DNA of 34,538 bases. It comes from Bodo saltans (Eukaryota; Euglenozoa; Kinetoplastea; Eubodonida; Bodonidae). Position 1 is the first letter of the stretch. Every line of letters begins with the position of its first letter. The position numbers were made by a program, and so were the translations under genes. Positions 1 to 32,883 of this stretch are shown one piece after another. The DNA lies in the NCBI GenBank assembly GCA_001460835.1, contig CYKH01001786.1, positions 1,325 through 35,862 on the forward strand, read 5' to 3'. The notes below the pieces were generated by a model. It saw only the letters and a list, made by a program, of their open reading frames with translations, ran no database searches and was not told where the DNA came from.

Positions 1-945
1 TTGCTTGGTGTTGCGAAGGTTCCAATAGTGTGTCCGCATGTGTGCTTGACGGCCATAGCTGTTGGGACGGACATTGCCCGTGACTCGTTGAGTGTGTTGC
101 GCAGCTGCAGCTGGGATGGACGAAGCTACGTACTGAAACTGTACCACTCCAACGTTATTCATCACATTGCACCTGAAGTTGCCGCTGCGCCGTATCTGCA
201 GCATCCCAACATCGTGCGCGTGGTGGCCATTGTTGACTCCGCCGATGGTGACGGTCGAACTGTGGGACTGCTGATGGAGCTGGCGGAGGATTCACTTTCT
301 GTAGTGTTGGCATCACCTTTACGCCCCTCAATAGCCACGTTATTGCGATGGCTGCACGAGGTTGCTCAGGCCATGGAGTTTGCACATGATTGTGGGGTGG
401 TGCACAGCGGTATCAATCCGGACAAAATCATGACTGTTGCCAGTGGGCAGGACGCAGTGGCAAAGGTGACTGACTTCGGCTCAGCGAGCATTGTATCGAC
501 TGTTGGTGCTTCAACGACAAACGCGATGTTCTGTGCGCCTGAATGCACCGTCGGTAGCACCGGCCCAACGAAGGCATCTGACGTGTTCAGCTTCGGGATG
601 ACGATGTGGTGCGTGTTGGTGCCGCAAGGGACGGACCACGGCCTAGGTAGGAATGATGTTCAAGTGGCTCTGGCCCTGCTAAAGGGTTGCCGACCATCAG
701 TGACAGCGATCGATCCGTATGCCACCCTCATTGAGCGGTGCTGGGCAGCCGAGCCACTGGCCCGACCAAGCATGGCCGAGGTTGCTGAGGCTTTGCGCAA
801 ATTGGTTGCGTGCTTGGTGCACCCACCTCCAACCCCCTCATCGCAGTTGTGGGCAACGCTGCTGCAATCGTACAACATAGAAGCTGAGTGGAAAGCACTG
901 CACTTTCATTCACAAGGAAAAATGCACTCCGCCGATTTCCGATGA
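1..945 (+). pseudogene. Kinase-fold part of a broken WD40-pseudokinase-ART gene copy (5' end outside window)
   Basis: This stretch is closely similar in DNA and protein to 5731-6620 of the intact gene at 5007-7439, so it is a paralogous copy whose WD40 part lies upstream of the window. The kinase fold is readable: the beta-3 lysine (K46 in VLK), HPNIV, a catalytic loop reading HSG at 135-137 instead of HRD, DFG, APE (as CAPE) and the DVFSFGMTMW helix. The HRD aspartate is replaced by Gly, so no phosphotransfer is expected. At about 907-937 the copy has a net gain of 7 nt over the other copy. This shifts the frame by +1 and ends the reading frame at 945, while homology continues in the next frame. 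Calling it a pseudogene is an inference; an assembly error is the alternative. Confidence 0.75.
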
Positions 946-1742
946 TATTGTTGATACATCCAACCGCTGTTATCAGCTGGTTGCCGGGATGGCGGGCTCC
1001 CTTTCGAGAAACGTCCGACGAGTCGTCATGGTAGGCGCTGATCCACTGACTGTCAGCTCCTTTGTTAAGCTTCACGCGAAGCGCAGCGAATAGTCGTGCT
1101 GTTAACCCTGCGCTACGATTGAAGAACCCTCAGGATGCTGCCTCAGTCGCTGGCCTGGACCGTTTGAAGCAATCCTTCATTCCCGTCATCACTGCACCGG
1201 GCAAGCCACTGCCTTGTGCTCGTTTGCTTTTTGGGTGGCATGGAACGTCATCAGCCACCGTTGCAGCCGTGTGCCGAGACGGCCCCAGGGCGCTGCGAAC
1301 ACTAGACTCTGGATATTTTGGTGCTTGGTCGTACTTTGCCCTTGAGGCCGAGTATGCTCTGCGCTATAGTACCCCGGAGCCTGCCACTGGTGAACGCGCA
1401 ATGATCCTTTTCGCAATTTCGGTGTCCCAAGTGAAGGTGATCACTCTGGAAGAGGATTATCGCCTAGTTGAGGGCCAGGACCCCAGGGCGCTTACACTGC
1501 AAGGGTTCAGCAAGTACTATGGCGGTGCGGACACTGCTATAGCCCTTGCCCGTGGCTACGATGCGCATTTTATTCCGGTGAAGGACTACGGGTGCACGCA
1601 CCCGCGTGCAGGCTATTGCACTCCTTGCACCATTGGGTATCAGGCCGTTGATGAGTCATCTGGCGCAGCAGAGGCGCATGAGATTGTGATTCAAAGCCAT
1701 CATCAGTGCATTCCGATAGCCATTGTGTACTTCAAAGCTTAG
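946..1742 (+). pseudogene. ADP-ribosyltransferase part of the same broken gene copy
   Basis: Homology to the intact gene continues in frame 2 (SDDIVDTSNRCYQLVAGMAG) until a stop at 1091-1093. It then resumes in frame 3 from about 1134 to the stop at 1740-1742. Between 1028 and 1134 the copy is 10 nt longer than the matching interval 6738-6834, which explains the second frame change. The last 200 residues show a PARP-like fold with WHGTS, a degraded Tyr motif (FGAWSYFA where the intact copy has FGSGLYFA) and AEAHEIVI near the end, so the His, Tyr and Glu positions are still recognisable. The piece could be translated alone from an internal Met, but no ATG sits at its beginning. I read it as the 3' half of the broken copy. 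Confidence 0.72.
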
Positions 1743-2058
1743 GAGCTCGATTCTAAGTTGGGAACACGTTGAGAAGAACTAGATGCACTACATTGACTGA
1801 AAAAAGAAGAAAAGAAAAAAAAAGAATGATCGAAAACGTTAGATGCTAAACGCGTCGGAGTCAACGAATACGTTGGAATGCATGAAGAAGGAATACTCAA
1901 GGGAATACTCAAGGGAACTGTAGTTAAGTTGGGAAGAAATAGACGCGACAGATGTGTAGGGAATGTCGTAAATCTGCACATTTGAAATTGCCACGGTTAG
2001 CAACCCACTGCCGCTCCATTCTCTAAATGTTTTCTCTTTTGTCATGTGAAGAATAACA
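1743..2058 (+). other. Spacer after the broken copy, with a duplicated 3'-UTR-like block
   Basis: No gene is visible. The word AAGTTGGGAA occurs at 1757-1766 and again at 1925-1934. The second copy and the 45 nt after it resemble the sequence after the stop of the intact gene (7471-7515), sharing GTTGGGAA, GCGACAG and TGTGTAGGG in the same order. A 12-bp tandem duplication lies at 1890-1901 and 1902-1913. The simplest reading is remnants of the family's 3'-UTR, duplicated along with the coding parts. Confidence 0.55.
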
Positions 2059-2141
2059 CAGTCCCAACGCACGCTACTTGCGTCAGTAGGAGCAGATGGC
2101 CTGTGGTTAGTTTGGGATACGAAATCGGACGTGTCATTCGT
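2059..2141 (+). pseudogene. WD40 scrap of a further family copy
   Basis: This stretch aligns with 5462-5545 in the third WD40 repeat of the intact gene: CGCACGCTACTTGCGTCAGT, then GGTTAGTTTGGGATACGAAA and CGGACGTGTCATT, each with a few substitutions. One base is missing near 2067, so the reading frame is broken. The similarity stops at about 2140, exactly where an inverted family segment begins. It is too short to be functional. Confidence 0.7.
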
Positions 2142-2206
2142 TAGCCGAACAGATTCCTTCGGCGCAACTGCCTTTGCAACACCATCGTTACTTGGCGCAT
2201 TCCACT
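2142..2206 (-). pseudogene. Inverted linker scrap of the same family
   Basis: The reverse complement of this segment aligns without gaps to 5665-5729 of the intact gene, the linker between the WD40 part and the kinase fold. By hand count 57 of 65 bases match, and it still spells WNAPSNDGVA on the minus strand. Weaker similarity continues to about 2240. It abuts the forward-oriented WD40 scrap, so two pieces of one gene have been joined head to head. No functional product is expected. Confidence 0.72.
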
Positions 2207-2683
2207 AATGACACTCCACAGAAAGCTTCTTGCCTTGCGGGTTCTTCCGCATGGCGTTCCGGGGGCCGCAGACAGTCGTCGGCTCCTTCTTTCCTTGCGG
2301 AAGCACTCCGTCTTGCCGAGTCTGATGACGATACCTGTTGTGTGGAAGCGGACCTTCAGGAGTTGAGCGCTTACTCCCCGATGGATGCGCTCCTGCCGCC
2401 GCTGCTGCCTCGCTTTCCGCTCCCTCACGGGCGGGAAGCACCAATCCTCCTTGGACCCTTCTCTCCCCCGCGGCCTTTCCTGCAGCCGAAGACGCCCCCC
2501 GGCCCGCATCCGCATAGCCAGTATGAGCGCGCGGCCAGGTGTAGGGTTATCTGTACAGAGTTGTTTTTCTACTGTTGTGTTTGTTTTGACTGATGATAGT
2601 TTTTTTTTTTTTGTTATGATTGTTGCTTTCTTTTTTCTTCCTAAACCACTTGACGATAACGAGCGAGACGTTGTTGATACACG
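2207..2683 (+). other. Spacer and probable 5' region of the fucosyltransferase-like gene
   Basis: A 139-residue + frame over 2174-2593 has no ATG at its start and no recognisable motif. I treat it and the minus-strand frames here as chance. The 3' end carries a T12 run (2601-2612) and a T/C-rich tract at 2622-2641 followed by AG at 2662-2663. That is a plausible trans-splice acceptor about 20 nt before the ATG at 2684. Confidence 0.45.
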
Positions 2684-4282
2684 ATGCTTCCGCAGACGGG
2701 ATTTGCACACAGTGATAAACGTCGTTGTTGTCCTTCGATCGAGCGAAGATGCGTCGTGCAACTCTTCTTGCTTGTGCTGGCTGTACTTCCAATCATTCTG
2801 ATTGCTCTGCGCACCGACTCCTTTGCCTCCAACAACGTCACTACTTCCTCTCTGTTAGGCACACGCGACGACTCTCATCCACATCAACTGCAGCAACCGC
2901 AGATATCATCGTCGTCCATGAACGTCTGCGACCAACTGAGGACGGCGCTGCGAGGAAACTCTGCTACTGAGTGGTCACGCCGTTTGCTTCCTCACGTTTA
3001 TCAGAAAGAGGGCCTCTTGCCTTCGAACGCACGTCTGGTTTTTGAAGTTCCTTCACCTAAGAGTGGCTTTGGATTGTGCAACGTCCGGTCATTTGTCTTG
3101 GACAGCCTTATTCTAGCTGCCCTTGTTGGAGCCGATATCATACTTCAACGTGCAGACACGCTGGACAGGCCTCACTCCGAACCCATCGCCCACCAGCTAG
3201 AAGGGTACTTCGATGTGCAACACCTTCGCGCCGAGTGGAAACGATTTTGTCCTTCAATGACTCTGTATCACAATCGGCGTAGTGAAGGGAGCCGCGGTCC
3301 TTTTCTTGAAGAGCTCGAAGGAGAAGAACTTGGTGGTGGTGCGTTGGTGACTCGGCATCCCACTCATATAGATGTCGGATCTACTCGATCTGATGAAGAT
3401 GCCATCAACAACAATGTTGAGTATCGCCTGAGTAAGATGGACATGGACATTCGCAGTTGGTTGGCGGCGATTAAAAGGCGGTTATGGTTAGGGTCATGGT
3501 TAGGGTTAGGACGTGCCAAGAGAAAAATGAACGCAAGCAAGGCAGCTTATTACGTGATTATGATTCACAAGCCGGTGCTTTGGGATTGGGCGCTTCCTGT
3601 GGATGCAGATGCTTCACTTGGAGAACTTCGACGTGCGGTAGGGGCTTCTCTTAGATCACCGGAGTACATCACTCGCGTCGCGGCGCGAGTAGTCGATCAC
3701 CTCAAGGCCCTCGGGGAAGAGTCTGGAAATGGACAACGCTTTTGTGGTGCCCACCTGCGGAGCGAACCGGACATGGTGAAACGTGCCGGTAAATTTGCAA
3801 ACGGCACGCTGCTGACCGACTTATTTCTCGATGCTGTGTTGTGGCAGCAGCGGGGCCCGAAACAGTGTGGATTGGTGTACGTTGCAGCTGGAACGAAAGT
3901 TGATCTTGATCGTTTCTCTGCGCTGGCATTTGCTCACAACATCACGCTGGTGACGCTGAGCTCCCTGAACAAGACGACAACTTTCCTGACGGAGACTGCT
4001 CGGTGGTCGCACTCTCAAATGGCTGTCTTGGAGTATGAAATCCTGGCGGCCTCTCACAAGTTCTTTGGCGCATCATCAAGTAGCTTCAGCTGGAACTTAG
4101 CCATTCGCCGCTACTTTGCACAATCGACTGATACCTTGCCTCTCCGCGACATCATCCAACCTTTTAAGCCAATTCCGTATCACGACAACCTTTCGACGAT
4201 CTACCTCGGGACGAATCGAAGTTCCCCGGACAAAGGCCTAAGTTCACAGGAGGTACTATCACAACAAGGTATGTGGCCATGA
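2684..4282 (+). CDS. Type II membrane protein, GDP-fucose O-fucosyltransferase-like
   Basis: The 532-residue product has a short basic N-terminus followed by one hydrophobic segment at about 24-42, the signature of a Golgi type II glycosyltransferase. A Ser/Thr/Asn stem follows. The C-terminal half resembles the O-FucT family (PF10250): HLRSEPD at 357-363 matches the family's HLR.E.D donor-site motif, followed by a VYVAAGT strand and a closing GASSSSFSWN segment about 40 residues before the end. An O-FucT would transfer fucose from GDP-fucose to Ser/Thr in the secretory pathway; the acceptor here is unknown. The start is the first ATG after the T/C tract, and it places the membrane segment correctly. 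Codons 269-276 contain TTAGGG-type repeats. The membrane topology is fairly safe; the family call rests on these motifs only. Confidence 0.6.
   Translation: MLPQTGFAHSDKRRCCPSIERRCVVQLFLLVLAVLPIILIALRTDSFASNNVTTSSLLGTRDDSHPHQLQQPQISSSSMNVCDQLRTALRGNSATEWSRRLLPHVYQKEGLLPSNARLVFEVPSPKSGFGLCNVRSFVLDSLILAALVGADIILQRADTLDRPHSEPIAHQLEGYFDVQHLRAEWKRFCPSMTLYHNRRSEGSRGPFLEELEGEELGGGALVTRHPTHIDVGSTRSDEDAINNNVEYRLSKMDMDIRSWLAAIKRRLWLGSWLGLGRAKRKMNASKAAYYVIMIHKPVLWDWALPVDADASLGELRRAVGASLRSPEYITRVAARVVDHLKALGEESGNGQRFCGAHLRSEPDMVKRAGKFANGTLLTDLFLDAVLWQQRGPKQCGLVYVAAGTKVDLDRFSALAFAHNITLVTLSSLNKTTTFLTETARWSHSQMAVLEYEILAASHKFFGASSSSFSWNLAIRRYFAQSTDTLPLRDIIQPFKPIPYHDNLSTIYLGTNRSSPDKGLSSQEVLSQQGMWP
3488..3510 (+). 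repeat. Telomere-type TTAGGG units inside a coding region
   Basis: TTAGGG occurs at 3488-3493 and 3500-3505, followed directly by TTAGG at 3506-3510. They are read in frame as WLGSWLGLG within the fucosyltransferase-like gene. TTAGGG is the kinetoplastid (and animal) telomere repeat. Confidence 0.7.
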
Positions 4283-4456
4283 AATATATGTTCGGGCCGC
4301 GAGATTTGAACCCAAAAAGGGCTGGAGAAGTCAGCCTTCACAACGAATAGCAACCTGTGTGTGATGACTCCAACGTGTGCACCATCTCAAACAATCTATC
4401 GCACACAGCAGAGGCCTACAACTGCATCACAAATAACATCACCCCCCTCCACCACA
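4283..4456. other. Spacer with a tRNA-like fragment on the minus strand
   Basis: On the minus strand, 4300-4312 reads as a tRNA T-arm/B-box-like word (GGTTCAAATCTCG). About 10 nt upstream on that strand lies a perfect 5-bp stem with a 7-nt loop (GGCTG/CAGCC) in the anticodon-arm position. The loop lacks U33, the T-stem is weak and no acceptor stem closes, so this is at most a decayed tRNA or a chance match. Nothing else is visible here. Confidence 0.25.
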
Positions 4457-4672
4457 TTAACTGTTGTTGAGATTTTTTTTTAAACGTGCTCCGCGATTGT
4501 GGTGCCTACGCAGATTTTGCACGATTATTGTGCTACAAAAAAACAACCAAAAACCAAAACCAAAACCAAACATTTTTTCCTTAACTCTTGTTGAGATTTG
4601 TTTTTCAACCTGTGCTCCGCGCGATTGCGGTGTTCGTAGATTTCGCACGACTTTTGTGCTTCAACAAAACAA
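4457..4672 (+). repeat. Two-copy tandem repeat, about 92 nt per unit with a 32-nt A/C-rich spacer
   Basis: Unit 1 (4457-4548) and unit 2 (4581-4672) share the order TTAACT.TTGTTGAGATTT, a T run, GTGCTCCGCG, a GATTG.GGTG word, AGATTT.GCACGA.T.TTGTGCT and a closing A/C-rich tail. Each unit contains a short hairpin with GCAC/GTGC arms around a 7-nt loop. Both are non-coding and lie upstream of the intact fusion gene. A duplicated small structured RNA or a degenerate mobile repeat would both fit; nothing here decides. Confidence 0.7.
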
Positions 4673-5006
4673 AACAAACCTTCGACTTGGGAGGTTTTAT
4701 CTTAATTTTCTACTTCCTTGAGGCTCTCCTCGTGCGATGTGTTCTGTACACTTCTTTTGATCCTTTGCACTTTGCCAAGTCAAAAACACGATAGATATCA
4801 TGTTGTCGCATCTCGGCGCAACCGCGACTCGACCAGTGACTGCAATTGCGTTGTACTTTGTGTCTTACGCGTGACGACTGGACCGACTCGTTTGCTGAGG
4901 GCATGGCCATGCAAGAGTAGGGGGGTGCTCGACACTGCTCACACACTCTTTTCACACTTCGATCTTTTCACGAAATAAAAATAATAGTAAGGAGCCTCTC
5001 CCACAC
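4673..5006 (+). promoter_or_regulatory. Spacer with probable trans-splice acceptor region for the fusion gene
   Basis: The stretch is T/C-rich at 4690-4770 and again at 4935-4970, with the first AG afterwards at 4986-4987, about 20 nt before the ATG at 5007. This fits a polypyrimidine tract plus 3' splice site for spliced-leader addition, if the organism is a kinetoplastid. No gene is seen. Confidence 0.35.
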
Positions 5007-7439
5007 ATGACGCACACAAACACCATTACCACCACTGCTCCCCTCAACGCACAGTCGTTAGGGCACATCACGTTTCTTGTTGACACCACTAAACAACGTA
5101 CACCACCTGTACGTTGTTTAGAGGTGTCAATACATAAACCACCCCAATTCCCAATGTGCTCTATCTTATCGGCCCAATTACAACTAAGCTCTGCTATCCA
5201 CTTTGTTACGTACAGTTCCGACGGCACGTTGCTTGCGGACATCAATGAAAACATGACAAAGTTGTGGCGCGTTGCTGACGGTGTCACGGAACGTTGGGAA
5301 CGACCGGTGTCGCCGAACCACTATTCCGTTTCGTTCAGTCCCGACGGGACGCTGCTTGCGACGGGGAGCGCTAACGGAACCACAAAACTTTGGCGTGTTG
5401 CTGACGGTGCGTGCACTGCGACCCTTGCTTTCCACAGCGCCGCGGTGAGTTCGGTTGTGTTCAGTCCCGACAGCACGCTGCTTGCATCAGTAGGATCGGA
5501 TGGCATGTGGTTGGTTTGGGATATGAAATCAGACGTGCCATTGTGTTCTGGGATTGTTCCTGCAATGGAAGTTGAGGACGTGGGATTCATCAAGTGCGAT
5601 AGTCAGTGTTGTGTCCTGGAGTATCGTTGCGTTGGGAGCCCGCTGAAGCGTTCTGTGAAGTTTGAGTGGAATGCGCCAAGTAACGATGGTGTCGCGCAGG
5701 CAGTTGCGCCGAATGGGTCTGTTCCGTTATGTCCGCATGTGTGCTTGACGGCCATAGCTGTTGGGACGGACATTGCCCGTGACTCGTTGAGTGTGTTGCG
5801 CAACTGCAGCTGGCGTGGACGAAGCTACGTACTTAAACTGTACTACTCCAACGTTATTCGTCACATTGCACCTGAAGTTGCCATTGCGCCGTATCTGCAG
5901 CATCCCAACATCGTACGCGTGGTGGCCATTGTTGATGCTTCCTATACTGACGCTCGAACTGTGGGACTGCTGATGGAGCTCGTGGAGGATTCGCTTGCTG
6001 CTGCGTTGGCATCACCTTCACGCCCCTCAATAGCCACGTTATTGCGATGGCTGCACGAGGCTGCTCAGGGTATTGCGTTTGCACATGAATGCGGCGTGGT
6101 GCACAGCAATATCAAGTTGGACACAATCATGACTGTTGTGAGCGAGGAGCAGCACGTGGTGGCAAAGGTGACTGACTTCGGCCCAGTGGGCATTGTATCC
6201 ACTTTTGGACCTTCAATGAGCATAGCGCATAGAACGCCGATGTTCGTGGCGCCTGAATACGCCGTCGGTGGCACCGGCCGAACGAAGGCATCTGACGTGT
6301 TTAGCTTCGGCATGACGATGTGGTACGCGTTGGTGCCACAAGGGACGGACCTTGGCCTTGGTACGAATGGTGTTGAAGTGGTTCTGGCGCTGCAAAAGGG
6401 TTGCCGACCATCGGTGACAGCGATCGATCCGTCGTATGCCACGCTCATTGAGCGGTGCTGGGCAGCCGAGCCATTGGCCCGACCAAGCATGGGCGAGGTT
6501 GCAGAGACTTTGCGCAAATTGGTTGCGTGCTTGGTGCAACCACCGCCAACTCCCTCATCGCAGTTGTGGGCAACGCTGCTGAAATCGTACAACATAGAAG
6601 CTGAGTGGAAAGCACTGCAATATCGTACGGAAGGACGACTGTTCTTGTCCGATGATATTGTCGACAGGACTAACCGTTGTTATCAGCTGGTTGCCGGGAT
6701 GGCGGGCTCCCTTTCGAGAAACGTCCGACGAGTGGTCATGGTCGGCACAAATGCGCGAACCACCAACACATTTGTTGTGTGTCACGAAGCTGAAGTCAGT
6801 AGTTGCCTCGTCAATGGTGTGACGAAGCCCATCGATGCTGCCTCAGTCGCTGGCCTGGACCGTTTGAAGCAATCCTTCATTTCCGTCGTCACTGCACCCG
6901 GCAAGCCACTGTCGGCTGCTCGTTTGCTTTTTGGGTGGCATGGAACTTCGCCAGACAAGGTTACTGCCGGGTGTCGAGACGGCCCCAGCTCGCTGCGAAT
7001 AACGGACTCTGGATTCTTTGGTAGTGGGTTGTACTTTGCCCTTGAGGCCGAGTATGCTCTGCGCTACAGTCCCCAGGACCCTGCTACTGGCGAGCGTGCA
7101 ATGATCCTTTTCGCAATTTCCGTGGTCGAACCGAAGGTGATCACCCCAGAAAGTGACTATCGCCGAGTTGAGGACCCTAGCACGCCTCACCTGCACGGAT
7201 TCAGCCAGTACTACTCTTGCAACCCGACGACCAGGGTGCCCCTTGCCCATGGGTACGATTCGCATTTTATTCCTGTGAAGAACTACGAGTGCACGCACCC
7301 CCTCACTGGCCTTGCCACATCTCGGGATGTTGGGTATCAGGCCGTTGATGAGTCATCTGGCGCAGCAGAGGCGCATGAGATTGTGATTGGAAGCTGCTTT
7401 CGGTGTTTTCCAATAGCAGTTGTGTACGTCAAAGCATAG
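5007..7439 (+). CDS. WD40 - pseudokinase - PARP-like ADP-ribosyltransferase fusion
   Basis: The 810-residue product has three parts. Three WD40-type repeats span about 65-180 (SSDGTLLA/KLWRVADG, SPDGTLLATGS/KLWRVADG, SPDSTLLASVGSDG/LVWD). A kinase fold spans about 245-525, with K277 in VLK, HPNIV, HSN at 366-368 instead of HRD, DFG at 390-392 and APE at 415-417. No glycine-rich loop is obvious, so this is probably a pseudokinase that may still bind nucleotide. A C-terminal PARP-type domain spans about 560-810, with H645 in WHGTS, Y676 in GLYFA and E791 in HEIVI, the H-Y-E triad expected of an active ADP-ribosyltransferase using NAD. The WD40 part probably binds a partner. ATG 5154 is an alternative start, which would put the 5078-5132 hairpin in the 5' UTR. 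Broken relatives lie at 1-2206. Domain calls are by motif; target and role are unknown. Confidence 0.8.
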   Translation: MTHTNTITTTAPLNAQSLGHITFLVDTTKQRTPPVRCLEVSIHKPPQFPMCSILSAQLQLSSAIHFVTYSSDGTLLADINENMTKLWRVADGVTERWERPVSPNHYSVSFSPDGTLLATGSANGTTKLWRVADGACTATLAFHSAAVSSVVFSPDSTLLASVGSDGMWLVWDMKSDVPLCSGIVPAMEVEDVGFIKCDSQCCVLEYRCVGSPLKRSVKFEWNAPSNDGVAQAVAPNGSVPLCPHVCLTAIAVGTDIARDSLSVLRNCSWRGRSYVLKLYYSNVIRHIAPEVAIAPYLQHPNIVRVVAIVDASYTDARTVGLLMELVEDSLAAALASPSRPSIATLLRWLHEAAQGIAFAHECGVVHSNIKLDTIMTVVSEEQHVVAKVTDFGPVGIVSTFGPSMSIAHRTPMFVAPEYAVGGTGRTKASDVFSFGMTMWYALVPQGTDLGLGTNGVEVVLALQKGCRPSVTAIDPSYATLIERCWAAEPLARPSMGEVAETLRKLVACLVQPPPTPSSQLWATLLKSYNIEAEWKALQYRTEGRLFLSDDIVDRTNRCYQLVAGMAGSLSRNVRRVVMVGTNARTTNTFVVCHEAEVSSCLVNGVTKPIDAASVAGLDRLKQSFISVVTAPGKPLSAARLLFGWHGTSPDKVTAGCRDGPSSLRITDSGFFGSGLYFALEAEYALRYSPQDPATGERAMILFAISVVEPKVITPESDYRRVEDPSTPHLHGFSQYYSCNPTTRVPLAHGYDSHFIPVKNYECTHPLTGLATSRDVGYQAVDESSGAAEAHEIVIGSCFRCFPIAVVYVKA
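5078..5132 (+). repeat. Long near-perfect inverted repeat (hairpin)
   Basis: The arms 5080-5102 and 5108-5130 pair at 22 of 23 positions, with a single A-A mismatch (5088 with 5122) and a 5-nt loop CCACC at 5103-5107. One G-T and one T-A pair extend the stem to 5078-5132. It falls within the first 45 codons of the fusion gene or, if translation starts at 5154, in its leader. In RNA it would be a very stable stem. It could influence translation or feed an RNAi pathway, or it could be the trace of a small palindromic insertion. Confidence 0.85.
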
Positions 7440-11960: not shown

Positions 11961-13319
11961 ATGGGAGTCCACAGGGTCGCTCTGGTCTCCGATTTTTTCT
12001 ACCCTGGATTCGGTGGGGTGGAAATTCATATGTACAATATTGCACAGTGCCTCATGCGACGAGGCCACAAAGTGATCATTATCACTCGTGCATACGGCGA
12101 TCGAAACGGCGTTCGTTACGTCACCGGTGGGCTTAAAGTGTACTACCTTCCATTTGTCGGTGTCCGCCTTCCTCCTGGCACGGTGACGCTGCCCACCATC
12201 TTCGGATGTTTTCCCATTTTGCGAAGTATTTTTATTCGTGAAGGGATCACTATTGTACACGGACATCAAACCACCTCGAACTTATGCCACGAAGCGATGT
12301 TCCATGGCGGCGTGATGGGGTTGAAGTGCATTTTCACCGACCACAGTCTTTTCGGATTTGCAGACGGCGCATCGATTCACATCAACAAAGTGCTTCTCTG
12401 GTCCCTTCGTTGCGTGGATCAAGTGATTTGCGTGAGCAACACCTCCCGGGAGAACACCGTGTTACGCGCTCAAATCCCTCCGAGCCGCGTGAGCGTCATT
12501 CCGAACGCCACCGACACGTTGGCCTTCACCCCTCCGGATGACATGAAATATCGATCATGGAGCGCGAGGACTGACCGTGAGGGGATCACCATTGTTGCTA
12601 TCACTCGGCTGGTGTATCGGAAAGGCTCGGATTTGTTTGTCGATGTCATTCCTGAGATCTGCAAGCGTCATCCTAACGTAAGGTGGGTAATTGGTGGAGA
12701 CGGGCCGCGGAAAACACAGCTCGACCAGATGGTGGAAAAGCACGGTCTGTTTGACCGTGTCAAGATGCTCGGTGCGCTGAAGCATAGTGAGGTGAAGGGC
12801 GTTCTGAATCAAGGACAAATTTTCTTGAATTGTAGTTTGACAGAGGCGTTTTGCATCGCGCTGATTGAAGCGTCGTCGTGCGGATTGCTGGGCGTTTCTA
12901 CCAGAGTTGGTGGCGTCCCAGAGGTCTTGCCATCAAGCATGCTAGTGTTGGCAGAGCCGGAGCCGACGTCGATTATCGTTGCACTGGAGGAGGCGATTGC
13001 AAAAGCTCCGTACATGTCCCCGTGGGAGATTCACGACAATGTGCGACGGTTTTATAGCTGGGATTGGGTGGCAGAGCGAACGGAGCGGGTGTACGATCGC
13101 GTACTCCACAGTGAGCCGCCTGCGCTGTGCGAGAAGCTGGTGGAGTTCACGTCTGTTGGCCGTGTGTACGGGTGTATCTGCATGATGTTGTATGCACTGG
13201 ACTGGCTGTTCCTCCAGTTCTTAGAGTGGTGGATGCCTGCTTCGAGTGTAGACGTCGCCCCGGACTTCCCTGTAGCGGCGTTTCATCGTCACAGAGACAA
13301 GCTTGACAAAGATCTCTGA
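11961..13319 (+). CDS. PIGA: GPI N-acetylglucosaminyltransferase catalytic subunit (PIG-A / GPI3)
   Basis: The 452-residue product is close to the usual length of PIG-A. This is the catalytic subunit of the complex that moves GlcNAc from UDP-GlcNAc to phosphatidylinositol on the cytosolic face of the ER, the first step of GPI-anchor synthesis. The N-terminal Rossmann domain shows VALVSDFFYPGFGGVEIH, the hallmark of this branch of GT4, followed by RGHKVIIITRAYG, VHGHQTTS and IFTDHSLFGFAD. The C-terminal GT-B domain has VIGGDGPRKTQLDQM and an EX7E motif with E295 and E303 in TEAFCIALIEAS, then GVSTRVGGVPEVLP. A hydrophobic segment at about 400-425 fits the single C-terminal membrane anchor of the family. 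All catalytic motifs are present and the frame is uninterrupted. This is one of the safest calls in the window. Confidence 0.95.
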   Translation: MGVHRVALVSDFFYPGFGGVEIHMYNIAQCLMRRGHKVIIITRAYGDRNGVRYVTGGLKVYYLPFVGVRLPPGTVTLPTIFGCFPILRSIFIREGITIVHGHQTTSNLCHEAMFHGGVMGLKCIFTDHSLFGFADGASIHINKVLLWSLRCVDQVICVSNTSRENTVLRAQIPPSRVSVIPNATDTLAFTPPDDMKYRSWSARTDREGITIVAITRLVYRKGSDLFVDVIPEICKRHPNVRWVIGGDGPRKTQLDQMVEKHGLFDRVKMLGALKHSEVKGVLNQGQIFLNCSLTEAFCIALIEASSCGLLGVSTRVGGVPEVLPSSMLVLAEPEPTSIIVALEEAIAKAPYMSPWEIHDNVRRFYSWDWVAERTERVYDRVLHSEPPALCEKLVEFTSVGRVYGCICMMLYALDWLFLQFLEWWMPASSVDVAPDFPVAAFHRHRDKLDKDL

Positions 13320-13485
13320 GAGAAGGGGTGGTGCTTTTTATGCTATGCATATGCAAAAAAGTTTTGTTCTCCCAACGAAAATGAGAGTTCTTGAAACCAC
13401 ATTATCAATTCACTTATTCCGCCTCCCTTTCACTCTCGTATCAAACATACACAGCTCTTTTTCACATAAATTCCAAAAAAAAAAG
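13320..13485 (+). promoter_or_regulatory. Probable trans-splice acceptor region for the M20 peptidase gene
   Basis: T/C-rich sequence at 13420-13440 is followed by CACAG ending near 13453 and a second T tract. The ATG at 13486 follows an A10 run after about 30 nt. An in-frame ATG at 13303 would overlap the PIG-A gene and add residues that do not belong to the peptidase family, so I reject it. Confidence 0.4.
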
Positions 13486-14907
13486 ATGTCCATTGACTGG
13501 AACTCTGTTCGTACTCACATTGATGGGGAATGGGATGAAACCATCATCCCCACTCTCAGTGACTACATCAAGATTCCCAACCAGAGTCCCCACTACGATT
13601 CTGAGTGGGCAACGAACGGCCTGATCGAGGACGCGTTCAAGGTGCTCATTGACTGGCTCAAGAAGCAGCCGGTGAAGGGCATGACGTTCGAGCTGCTCGA
13701 GGAGCCCGGTCGCACCCCCTTCCTCTTCATCGAGATTGAAGGCTCCACCGCGACCGCCAACACGCTGTTTATGTATGGCCATATGGACAAGCAGCCCCCG
13801 CTGTACCCCTGGTCCGAGGGTCTCGACCCCTACACCCCCGTGTACCGTGACGGTAAGCTGTACGGCCGCGGTGGTGCTGATGACGGCTATGCGATCTGCG
13901 CCGCCATCACCTCCATCGTCGCTCTGCAGAAGCACAACATCCCCCACGCCCGCACGGTGGTCACCATCGAGGCCTGCGAGGAGTCCGGCAGCTTCGACCT
14001 CCCTCACTACATCAACAAGTGCAAGGGACGTATCGGTGATGTCGACCTCGTCGTCTGCCTTGACAGCGGGTCCATGAATTACGATCAGCTCTGGCTGACG
14101 GGCTCCCTTCGTGGTGTTGCGGGTGGTGTCCTCACCGTTCAGGTGCTCGACGAGAGCATGCACAGCGGTATCGCCGGTGGTGTTGTGCCCGATGCGTTCC
14201 GTATCATTCGCCACCTTCTTGACCGTATTGAGGACTCCGCCACTGGCGAGTTCAAGGTTGCGGAGGCGTTCATTCCGATCCCCGATGAAATCCCCAAGAC
14301 CATGGCTGCCTTCCACGAGCTCGACTTCGTTGGCACCTTTGCCCTCTCCAAGGGCGTCAAGCCCGCCCCTGGCGATAACGTCACCCTGGCCCTGAACAAC
14401 TTCTGGCGTCCCTGCCTCACCGTCGTGGGTGCTGACCTCCCCCACCCCACTAAGGCTGGAAATGTGATTGCTGCTAAGAAGTCCGTGAAGCTCTCCATCC
14501 GCACGCCCCCTGGTATCGACGCCAAGGAAGTTAGCATCGTCGTTGGCCGCATCCTCGAGGCGGATCCCCCACAGGGTGCCAAGGTCACGTACGAGGCCGA
14601 GGCTGCCGCAAGCGGCTGGTCTGCCCCCATCCTCCAGGACTGGCTGCGCACCGCTGTCAACGAGGGCAGCGAGTTCTACTTCAACAAGCCCTTCGCCCTC
14701 ACAGGCCTGGGTGGCAGCATTCCTTTCATGGGCATGCTCGGTGAGATGTACCCCAAGGCTCAGTTTGTCGTTACTGGTGTCCTCGGTCCCCAGAGTAATG
14801 CTCACGGACCGAACGAGTTCCTGCACGTGCCTTTCGGTAAGGGCGTCACGAACTGCGTTGCTCGCATCGTCGCTGCCCACTACGTGAACCAGCTGTCCCA
14901 GCAGTAA
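13486..14907 (+). CDS. M20-family metallopeptidase (CNDP-like dipeptidase)
   Basis: The 473-residue product contains the complete di-zinc site of the M20 family: H99 in GHMDKQ, bridging D132 in GRGGADDG, catalytic E165 and ligand E166 in EACEESG, D193 in VCLDSG, and H440 in NAHGPNEF. A dimerisation-type insert lies between the two halves. It is most like cytosolic carnosine/non-specific dipeptidases, which remove single residues from di- and tripeptides. No signal peptide is seen, so a cytosolic location is likely. The gene has an unusually strong preference for C- or G-ending codons compared with its neighbours, suggesting high expression. That bias also creates a 585-codon stop-free frame on the opposite strand, which I consider an artefact. 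The start at 13486 is chosen because the family fold begins there, right after an A-rich leader. Confidence 0.93.
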   Translation: MSIDWNSVRTHIDGEWDETIIPTLSDYIKIPNQSPHYDSEWATNGLIEDAFKVLIDWLKKQPVKGMTFELLEEPGRTPFLFIEIEGSTATANTLFMYGHMDKQPPLYPWSEGLDPYTPVYRDGKLYGRGGADDGYAICAAITSIVALQKHNIPHARTVVTIEACEESGSFDLPHYINKCKGRIGDVDLVVCLDSGSMNYDQLWLTGSLRGVAGGVLTVQVLDESMHSGIAGGVVPDAFRIIRHLLDRIEDSATGEFKVAEAFIPIPDEIPKTMAAFHELDFVGTFALSKGVKPAPGDNVTLALNNFWRPCLTVVGADLPHPTKAGNVIAAKKSVKLSIRTPPGIDAKEVSIVVGRILEADPPQGAKVTYEAEAAASGWSAPILQDWLRTAVNEGSEFYFNKPFALTGLGGSIPFMGMLGEMYPKAQFVVTGVLGPQSNAHGPNEFLHVPFGKGVTNCVARIVAAHYVNQLSQQ

Positions 14908-30060: not shown

Positions 30061-32883
30061 ATGACGTACAAGAAGAAGCCAACTGCAGCAGCAGCAGGAG
30101 CAGCGCCTGCAACTGATGGCACGGCGACCGCTTCTCGAGGCCACCCGAAATTCATTCTTCGTAACAAGCGAGGCCACTACGCCTTCCTCGACGAGGAGCC
30201 AAAGGACGTCACTGTGAACTACATCTGGATTATGCGTGCCCCGAGGTTGGTCACGATCGCTGGACTCAAGCGCGAGATGAAGCAGGCCGGTCGCAGTTGG
30301 TTCGCCACGGACAAATTCCTTCACGAACTCCTGCTGAAAATGGGCGCAGTCATTGGGCGGAATAACACTCAAATGAAGGCGAAGAAGAACGGTGCCATCG
30401 CCGCCGCTGCTGGGGCCACGCAAGAGGACATGGACGACACTGAGACTGACGTTGATGGTCTGGAATCGTACGTTTGCCTCCGTGCAAACGAAGGGTACGA
30501 TATGAGCGGTGTCGACACCACATATGTGGACGATAATACCGATGCCGCCAGCGACGAGAGCGCCAATCTCTTGTTGGCCACATTGCCAAGCAGCGCGTTG
30601 TTCTGGGTTGGTCAACGCATGACAAAGAAATCTCCCCCGCCACAAACGCTGATCCTTACTGTAGCGGAAATGTTCCTAAAGAGCTCACTCCACCAGAAGC
30701 GTATGATGCATCAACTTCTTTTCGGCGTTCGCCGCGTGCTGAACAACGACGACGTGGGAAACTGTGGCCACTCGATCATCGAAGTGCGCGGTAAAGTTCC
30801 CACGCAAGAAGAGATTTCGAAGCTGAAGTTGCTGCCGGGTGTAGGGAAGCTGTACCACGTCATCGAGCAGGACAAACTCCCCAAGGGTGTGAATCCTGAA
30901 CACCAAGGCGGGTACGATCCTAGAGGAACGCCGATCTGTGAAGGTGCAGGCGGTATGCCTGTCCAAGCAGAGAACCGCCTGCTGTGCTTGATGTCTGGCG
31001 GCATCGACAGCCCCGTTGCAGCATACAAGATGATGGTGCGTGGGTGCCACGTGGACCTGGTGCACTACCTGAACTCCACGAGCGAAATCGCTGCGGTGAT
31101 GGATAAGAATCGCAAGATTGCTCGTCGTCTATCGGAGATTCAAGGCTCCTTGACCCTCAAGTTTGTTGACATCCAAAAGATTCAAGCTCAAATCGTGGCC
31201 AAGATCCCCAACAATAACCGAACGTTGGTCTACAAGTGGTTCATGCTGGCGCTCTCGTCCTCCCTTGCCTCCCCAGCCATGAGCGACGGCTGCGCAGCGC
31301 ACAAACTTCTGGTAGTGGGAGATTCAATCGGTCAGGTGGCGTCCCAGACGGTTGACAACGTCTCGTCGTTGTACCGCGCAGTGGACACACCTGTGATTGC
31401 GCCACTTGGCGGCGCCAACAAAGTCGATATCATCGAGTGTGCAAAGCACATCGGCACATTCGACTTCAGCTCGATCCAAGCCTCTGACTGCTGCCAGTAC
31501 ATGATGTGCAAGACTGGCGCGAATTTGTTTATTGGCCCGAAGACACTCCGCGCTTGCGCACAGGCGATCATGAGCGACATCGCCGGCGTGAAGCTGCCCG
31601 TGAAGGTGGAACACTATTACAACGGTGAGCTTCGCAGCACTGCGGACGAAGAACTTCAGCCCCTCTCACAAGCGTTCCTGCACAATGGCAGACTCCGTGC
31701 CGCCGTTGCTGCACGTCGAGGCATTAGTGCTGCTGCACCAGCGTCGCCCACAAACGGTGGCGCGACTGCAACGCATTCCGATCCCCAACCTACGAATGAG
31801 GCAGCCGCTGAATCTGACGAGGAAGAAGATATTCAAGAGGTTGACCCTGCAAAGCGAATCGTCAATCTCGACTGCGCAGCCGGCACGGAAGTGCATCGCG
31901 CGGTACACACAGCAATGCTGCGTGCACCTCACGGAAACCCTTCCACTCTCCACGCAAGTGGACGTGCGGCACGCATGGCAATTGAGCAAGTCCGCGCAGA
32001 CGTCGCAAACGCCCTAGGCGTCTCAGTCACTGACTTAATCTTCACCAGCGGTGGCACCGAGAGCAACCGTATCGCGATTCATGGATACCGCGTGGTGAAC
32101 CGTGCAGCTTGGATGCACGCTTCGACTCAAGATGACAAAGGTGACGATGATAGCAGCAGCACTGATGATGGTAGGCCTACGATCGCGGTGATTGATGCTG
32201 TCAACCATGAAACCGGCTCGATCAACGTGATCACGGAGCGGCCCGCAGGTGCCCAGCGTCTGCACGTCGATGCTTGCCAAGCGTTCTTGAAAATTGATCT
32301 GAAGAAGTGCATTCAGGTGGTCGACTCCATGTCCATCACTGCGCATAAGATCAACGGCCCAATTGGATGCGGCGTGTTGTACGTGCGCAACTTGAAGCAG
32401 AGCCTTGAGAACGGCAGCATTAAGCCGCTTTTCTTTGGAGGTGTGCAGGAGTCCAAACTTCGGCCTGGCACGGAGAACACCCCAGCGATTATTGGCTTGG
32501 GTGCGGCGCTTCGGTTGAATCGTGCGGGGTCTGTACACGATCAGATTGACGCATTGGTCACGTCCACCCTCCCAGAAATGGGCTGTGTGATTAACCGACG
32601 AGGCAAGACGAGCGGCTTTATTTGCCACGCCACCATCCCTGCTGGAGTGAGCAACGTGGACTTGGTGACTCTTCTCTCCGCTGTGCACAATGTCGAGATT
32701 GGAACCGGGTCCGCGTGCAAGACAGGAGAGGTGAATCAGACTGGTGTGTATGAGACGTTAGGCATTCATCCGATCCCGGAGAAACGATCGATCCGACTGA
32801 GCTGGGACCACTTCACGACCCTCACCGAGGCAGAGAGAGGACTTCTGGCGCTGGGAACTGCGCTTAAGAAGCTTCAGAAGTAA
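30061..32883 (+). CDS. ThiI-like tRNA sulfurtransferase fused to a NifS/IscS-like cysteine desulfurase
   Basis: The product has 940 residues. Its first half is ThiI-like. About 220-280 resembles the ferredoxin-like part (LLFGVRRVL to LLPGVGKLYHVIE), then a PP-loop ATPase with SGGIDSP at 312-318, GDSIGQVASQT, and C477 where ThiI has its catalytic PP-loop cysteine. ThiI adenylates U8 of tRNA and inserts sulfur to make 4-thiouridine. No clear THUMP domain lies between the ferredoxin-like part and the PP-loop, and no rhodanese domain follows. Instead, after an acidic linker (about 565-598), a fold-type I cysteine desulfurase runs from 600: GNPSTLHASG, SGGTES, D737 in HVDACQ, PLP lysine K763 in TAHKINGP, and C886 in GSAC, the persulfide cysteine. 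The segment that should carry the PLP-stacking His is replaced by an acidic stretch (about 688-705). The fusion suggests direct sulfur hand-over. Confidence 0.85.
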   Translation: MTYKKKPTAAAAGAAPATDGTATASRGHPKFILRNKRGHYAFLDEEPKDVTVNYIWIMRAPRLVTIAGLKREMKQAGRSWFATDKFLHELLLKMGAVIGRNNTQMKAKKNGAIAAAAGATQEDMDDTETDVDGLESYVCLRANEGYDMSGVDTTYVDDNTDAASDESANLLLATLPSSALFWVGQRMTKKSPPPQTLILTVAEMFLKSSLHQKRMMHQLLFGVRRVLNNDDVGNCGHSIIEVRGKVPTQEEISKLKLLPGVGKLYHVIEQDKLPKGVNPEHQGGYDPRGTPICEGAGGMPVQAENRLLCLMSGGIDSPVAAYKMMVRGCHVDLVHYLNSTSEIAAVMDKNRKIARRLSEIQGSLTLKFVDIQKIQAQIVAKIPNNNRTLVYKWFMLALSSSLASPAMSDGCAAHKLLVVGDSIGQVASQTVDNVSSLYRAVDTPVIAPLGGANKVDIIECAKHIGTFDFSSIQASDCCQYMMCKTGANLFIGPKTLRACAQAIMSDIAGVKLPVKVEHYYNGELRSTADEELQPLSQAFLHNGRLRAAVAARRGISAAAPASPTNGGATATHSDPQPTNEAAAESDEEEDIQEVDPAKRIVNLDCAAGTEVHRAVHTAMLRAPHGNPSTLHASGRAARMAIEQVRADVANALGVSVTDLIFTSGGTESNRIAIHGYRVVNRAAWMHASTQDDKGDDDSSSTDDGRPTIAVIDAVNHETGSINVITERPAGAQRLHVDACQAFLKIDLKKCIQVVDSMSITAHKINGPIGCGVLYVRNLKQSLENGSIKPLFFGGVQESKLRPGTENTPAIIGLGAALRLNRAGSVHDQIDALVTSTLPEMGCVINRRGKTSGFICHATIPAGVSNVDLVTLLSAVHNVEIGTGSACKTGEVNQTGVYETLGIHPIPEKRSIRLSWDHFTTLTEAERGLLALGTALKKLQK

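Follow-up and report, generated by a model that had tools for sequence, protein, structure and literature searches.

We analyzed a stretch of 34,538 nucleotides from Bodo saltans (contig CYKH01001786.1, positions 1,325 to 35,862; hereafter the window), which carries on its + strand a gene joining a WD40 region, a kinase fold, and a PARP-type ADP-ribosyltransferase (ART) domain in one predicted chain of 810 residues. The gene (5007..7439) is a single open reading frame (ORF) that runs for 810 codons without interruption from the ATG at 5007. ORF calling, Pfam scans, alignments, and structure models place the WD40 region at residues 64-220 (5196..5666), the kinase domain at residues 244-510 (5736..6536), and the ART domain at residues 541-810 (6627..7436). 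Each part was matched by Pfam (E 1.7e-15, 4.5e-20, and 5.8e-6, respectively), which bears out the three-part chain proposed in a preliminary description made from the letters alone. The residues named there (VLK K277, H366-S367-N368, DFG 390-392, APE 415-417, H645, Y676, and E791) were all correctly placed. The domain order is not a product of chance, since it recurs at other loci and a PARP fold was obtained when the ART part was modelled. An NCBIfam scan of eight proteins returned only matches far below cut-off, and the PADLOC hits to the window protein, among them mad6 and PD-T4-6, fell on the kinase part, with one on the WD40 part; neither was informative on function.

The full-length AlphaFold2 (AF2) model of the window protein had a mean predicted local distance difference test score of only 60. 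Its WD40 and kinase parts were usable and its ART part was not, so the ART was modelled separately from a 20-row alignment. In the WD40 region, two stretches pass Pfam (best 135-172); of the three repeats originally described, the third (about 64-91) is a degenerate unit recognized by eye. The AF2 model has 15 strands in residues 66-220, which form nearly four blades rather than a closed ring of six to eight.

The kinase domain (Pkinase match at residues 285-499) has a predicted bilobal, TKL/TK-like fold, with a Foldseek match to the BRAF kinase domain (E 4.2e-15). Alignment identified K277, E290, which is consistent with the alpha-C Glu, H366-S367-N368 in the catalytic loop (6102..6110), D390-F391-G392, and A415-P416-E417. 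The glycine loop is degraded to ARDSL where the copies C29 and C731 (family members elsewhere in the genome are given by such handles) read AGGSS and C871 reads GWGSS, a loss that had gone unremarked in the preliminary description. An active kinase would be expected to keep both the glycine loop and the catalytic Asp, and the window copy, with ARDSL and HSN, has lost both; its kinase is probably dead.

The window ART, modelled alone, gives a PARP fold, in support of the PARP-type ART that had been proposed. Its match to PF00644 lies marginally below the curated cut-off in the protein scan (26.4 against 26.7 bits) and above it at the same place in the genome scan (29.3 bits). Among nine paralogue ORFs in the protein scan, five pass and three fail, while the PARP score of L014 (C871) lies outside the matches listed; in the whole-genome scan, 12 of the 14 places of the ART subfamily pass, the window among them. 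The H-Y-E pattern characteristic of PARP-type enzymes is present as claimed. At H645 (6939..6941), 13 of the 17 copies aligned have His, and Y676 (7032..7034) and E791 (7377..7379) are invariant in all 17. E791 aligns with a Glu of bacterial relatives; its assignment as the third residue depends on the alignment register, on which HMMER against PARP12 agrees over a weak stretch of 3.4 bits and hhalign is one column off. In the other four aligned ARTs (L009, two copies in L021, and L022), a Tyr takes the place of the first His (WYG).

We then searched the B. saltans genome (29.3 Mb in 934 contigs) for relatives. The whole protein gave at least 74 matches (56 of 228 candidates scored). The ART part gave 22 matches at 19 distinct places, three of the rows being additional fragments of copies C403 and C871. 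Six copies have WD40, kinase, and ART in one open frame (the window gene, C685, C871, C57, C403a, and C403b). Some C403 domain scores are weak (C403b kinase, 22.6 against 23.1 bits; C403a PARP, 14.9 against 26.7), and both copies are clear when compared with the window's ART. C29 and C644a have a kinase and an ART behind an N-terminal part without any Pfam match. When eight N-terminal pieces were compared, only the two from C644 were alike, two of the eight consisting partly or wholly of N; where ORFs run through N, as in C686 (1-1324) and at the start of C731, their length is not real. Frame breaks divide the copies in C731, C556, C554, and C644b, and also a copy upstream of the gene on its own contig (C686). 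That copy was described as broken with HSG at the catalytic-loop position, and alignment confirms this: its kinase and linker part (1..945, + strand) starts directly after a 1324-base N run in the contig, and its ART part (1050..1742, + strand) lies in a different frame. C730, C825, and C894 reach contig ends, and C764 has two stops. The suggestion that members multiply and decay locally is supported. By its sequence, the window gene is a member of a lineage-specific family whose fuller members start with a WD40 array or, in some, with a different N-terminal region, followed by a TKL-like kinase that reads HSD and by a C-terminal H-Y-E ART.

The catalytic loop was compared in 17 genes (C554, C730, and C764 were not included), of which 15 were readable, C800 and C403c showing no loop. 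The alignment also contained an ordinary kinase ORF with HRD, located upstream of C800 (L022:2-925), which does not enter the count. The Asp is kept in 11 of the 15 (C685, C29, C871, C825, C644a, C644b, C57, C731, C556, C894, and C692, which has three loops), eight of them reading HSDIK. It is replaced in the window copy (N), the upstream copy (G), C403a (N), and C403b (N). The preliminary description had taken loss of the catalytic Asp to be a family trait, and the loop count rules this out, although many of the single-frame WD40 copies do have a damaged kinase. The commonest loop state is an Asp with HSD replacing HRD; judged from the motifs, pseudokinases are a derived condition with more than one origin in the family. 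Repeated loss of the kinase is indicated by the single-frame WD40 copies, only three of six of which keep the Asp (C685, C871, and C57), two of these being damaged otherwise (C685 in the glycine loop and by K277R and K370N; C57 by HSDIS). Loss of the glycine loop is common to the local trio of the window copy, C685, and the upstream copy, and later changes were D368N in the window copy, K277R and K370N in C685, and D368G and K370N in the upstream copy. In C403 (L021), two adjoining copies (878-3802 and 3862-7008) have HNN loops, no DFG at the expected place, and ARTs. Their motifs mark this pair as a second kinase decay, separate from the local one. The glycine loop and the Asp are both kept in C871, C29, C644a, C644b, C731, C556, and C894. 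Three of these are split (C644b, C731, and C556), and one reaches a contig end (C894).

These motif states bear on a proposal in the preliminary description, that the window pseudokinase domain is an allosteric regulator of the ART. N368, the degraded glycine loop, and the retained ART set would fit such a regulator, as would the two C403 copies that likewise combine HNN with an ART. We nevertheless consider it improbable, as the window kinase shows no sign of constraint and most of the readable family loops keep the Asp.

We next examined selection. Among C871, C29, C825, and C644a, dN/dS was 0.15-0.23 in the kinase and 0.15-0.21 in the ART, the C644a pairs being near saturation (pS 0.70). 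One ART pair with C57 gave 0.17, and its remaining pairs were saturated. Kinase and ART are thus under purifying selection in several copies. For the window lineage, codon changes were counted since its split from C685, after 22 unpolarisable codons (7 synonymous and 15 nonsynonymous) had been dropped. Nonsynonymous to synonymous changes were 37/10 in the kinase, 10/3 in the linker, and 10/5 in the ART, with no difference in ratio between kinase and ART (Fisher p 0.49). In the kinase-to-ART part, no stop was seen where about 2.6 would be expected by drift (P(0) ~0.07).

One explanation is that the window copy is a decaying gene without a function of its own and that only its sister copies matter. 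The kinase changes in its lineage look neutral, its WD40 part is short, and its nearest relatives are damaged (C685 by H645Y, K277R, K370N, and a TAG shortly before the end of the gene; the copy upstream by its split). The 810 open codons, the lack of the stops expected by drift, and the intact H-Y-E set speak against it, and we regard it as quite possible, if short of probable. The gene may be weakly held open, or early in decay. From its motifs, it is a derived and possibly decaying member of the family, with a short propeller and a retained ART catalytic set.

PARP domains are not confined to this family in B. saltans. The genome scan with PF00644 gave 27 PARP-domain matches, 25 of them above cut-off and 13 outside the WD40-kinase-ART family. 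The other PARPs include a PARP1-like enzyme with WGR and a regulatory domain, and proteins with WWE, UBA, or ankyrin parts. The genome also encodes ADP-ribose erasers; with these at hand, the product of an ART could be recognized and taken off again. The 27 matches stand in contrast, inside the kinetoplastids, to the single PARP described in Trypanosoma brucei (PMC5473844). These other PARPs and erasers, together with the purifying selection on kinase and ART, would also suit kinases of routine signalling inside the cell that have an ART as their output, acting in stress or the cell cycle with no role in conflict. That explanation is unlikely in our view: the family occupies 19 places, many copies are broken, the repeat number is variable, and the N-terminal parts differ.

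Repeat variation was examined in C871. Its WD40 array has 15 stretches by Pfam and 16 pattern matches, 12 of them at an exact spacing of 42 residues, and its units have a mean identity of 69% (57-86%). Most of the variation falls at positions 14, 16, 18, 35, 38, 39, 40, and 42 of the unit, and pN/pS was 0.92 at these eight positions and 0.27 elsewhere. The ART of this copy, the richest in WD40 units, has partial internal duplications around the HGT motif and may be impaired by them. The HNWD repeats of fungal NOD-like receptors (NLRs; het-e and het-d; PMC12222747, PMC4986451) are reported likewise to have WD40 units of 42 residues, changing unit number, and few variable positions per unit; in PMC12222747, the repeats are more than 80 and up to 100% identical, with few sites under diversifying selection. 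The likeness of the C871 array to these repeats is suggestive. An attempt to place the variable C871 positions on the published fungal positions was dropped because the register could not be fixed. The protist family differs from the fungal proteins in its lower repeat identity and in having a kinase and an ART where those have NACHT or HET, neither of which was found in it. NACHT or NB-ARC was absent from the Pfam matches listed for the window protein and nine paralogue ORFs (the best 25 for the window protein, L014, and L018), and in the window protein other folds occupy residues 64-220, 244-510, and 541-810, leaving no room for either.

The architecture and motifs suggest a lineage-specific family of sensor, switch, and effector proteins, a reading that we hold tentatively, at a little under even confidence. 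In such a protein, the WD40 array would bind a ligand, the kinase would act as a switch by auto- or trans-phosphorylation, and the ART would then provide the output by transferring ADP-ribose from NAD+ onto proteins or other targets. As to role, we judge non-self recognition the likeliest, and possibly the correct one, since repeat number and copy number seem to change fast. Indirect pointers to a possible role in conflict or recognition are the variable WD40 arrays, the copy turnover, and the bacterial relatives described below.

Several results weigh against the sensor, switch, and effector reading. No copy in the assembly unites WD40, a kinase with its whole set of residues, and an ART free of damage. 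In C685, both the glycine loop and K277 are lost and H645 is Tyr; the loops of C57 and of C403a and C403b read HSDIS and HNN, respectively; and the ART of C871 is partly duplicated inside. The kinase and H-Y-E sets are both present in C29 and C644a, which lack WD40. The window kinase changes are indistinguishable from neutral (37 to 10, p 0.33), and those in its ART are not numerous enough for a verdict (10 to 5, p 0.58 against neutral). The eight C871 positions were picked by entropy, so that their pN/pS contrast is inflated, and the repeat identity in C871 (mean 69%) is below the 80-100% of the fungal het genes.

A more specific version, which we rate as rather unlikely, is a hitherto undescribed receptor family, resembling innate immunity, in a free-living kinetoplastid. 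Here, the WD40 arrays, changing by repeat turnover, would detect non-self in the form of a symbiont, a virus, prey, or kin, the non-RD kinase would relay the signal, and the ART would execute the response; the kinase-ART core, shared with bacteria of lineages in which intracellular symbionts abound, would be a module used by both sides of a conflict. To our knowledge, little has been learned about receptors of an immune-like kind in unicellular eukaryotes. If true, the family would offer a testable system for how a protist recognizes what enters it, in the form of a variable sensor joined to a kinase and an ART.

A scan of genome contigs gave 18 pattern matches, of which four were confirmed, all loci in metagenome-assembled genomes: L049 (Proteobacteria), L050 (Legionellales), L051 (Francisellaceae), and L052 (Rickettsiales). 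By Pfam and alignment, L049 (164-2722) and L052 (2-3142) each encode, in one ORF, an intact-looking kinase with HRD and DFG and, behind it, a PARP-type ART that belongs to the same subfamily. In L052, the match to PARP is marginally below cut-off (26.0 against 26.7 bits). L050 (4575-6980) combines the ART with ankyrin repeats, and L051 (3951-7349) with TPR and a NACHT-like stretch below cut-off. The contig neighbors, a RecJ-like gene in L050, an AAA-ATPase/PDDEXK gene in L051, and a reverse-transcriptase gene in L052, fit bacterial contigs; the L049 contig, with 3.5 kb and one long ORF, offers no neighbor for such a check. Two scans of a viral contig set gave 3 and 18 pattern matches, none of them confirmed, and a tblastn search of plasmids with the ART part found no relative.

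The ART motif D[AS]HFIPV is common to the bacterial proteins and the protist family, as is, in L049 and L052, the order of kinase then ART. The bacterial proteins differ in lacking Pfam-listed WD40, in reading HRD in the kinase, and in sequence (19-23% identity of L052 to the protist ARTs over the ART alignment). The shared stretch and the presence of kinase and ART in one ORF in two of the four would be explained by transfer of the core between bacteria and protists, in either direction. This we consider rather unlikely. In an ART tree of 30 rows, the split joining the bacterial relatives to the protist family and C81 has a support of 82/77, too weak for a claim of transfer; the identity of L052 is low, its kinase and that of L049 read HRD, and among 174 genomes of the order of L052, drawn from a larger group, the only match was its own. 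Bacteria of such lineages frequently live inside protists. B. saltans is reported to harbor a Holosporales endosymbiont (PMC8163844), and the term ADP-ribos is absent from the main text of that report. A link between these ART relatives and such symbionts is speculation.

Among known proteins, the ARTs of the PARP10/12/14/15 type (ARTD, PF00644) are among the closest. In the human enzymes, the third residue of the H-Y-E type is mostly Ile. The protist family differs in having Glu there, in its D[AS]HFIPV stretch, and in its fusion to a kinase and WD40; among the best 25 of 36 Pfam families matched, the window protein has no WWE, macro, or zinc-finger domain. A loose analogy can be drawn with plant non-RD immune receptor kinases, which likewise have HxD without the Arg in the catalytic loop (PMC8463890); the protist proteins differ in their fusion and in that no receptor ectodomain was seen. 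We know of few cases of a kinase and an ADP-ribosyltransferase in one chain. The preliminary description knew of no protein with the WD40-kinase-ART order, and within the literature searched, including the available parts of PMC4245714, PMC2621209, PMC4728078, and PMC7159879, no report of one was found. The three parts are each known, and their combination and the family are new within that literature.

The neighboring genes in the window, by Pfam, include one for an O-fucosyltransferase (2684-4282, match marginally under cut-off), PIG-A (11961-13319), and an M20 peptidase (13303-14907); these three gave no hint of a functional link to the WD40-kinase-ART gene. Further along (30061-32883), a single ORF of 940 residues combines a ThiI domain with one of the class-V aminotransferase type and is apparently a fusion.
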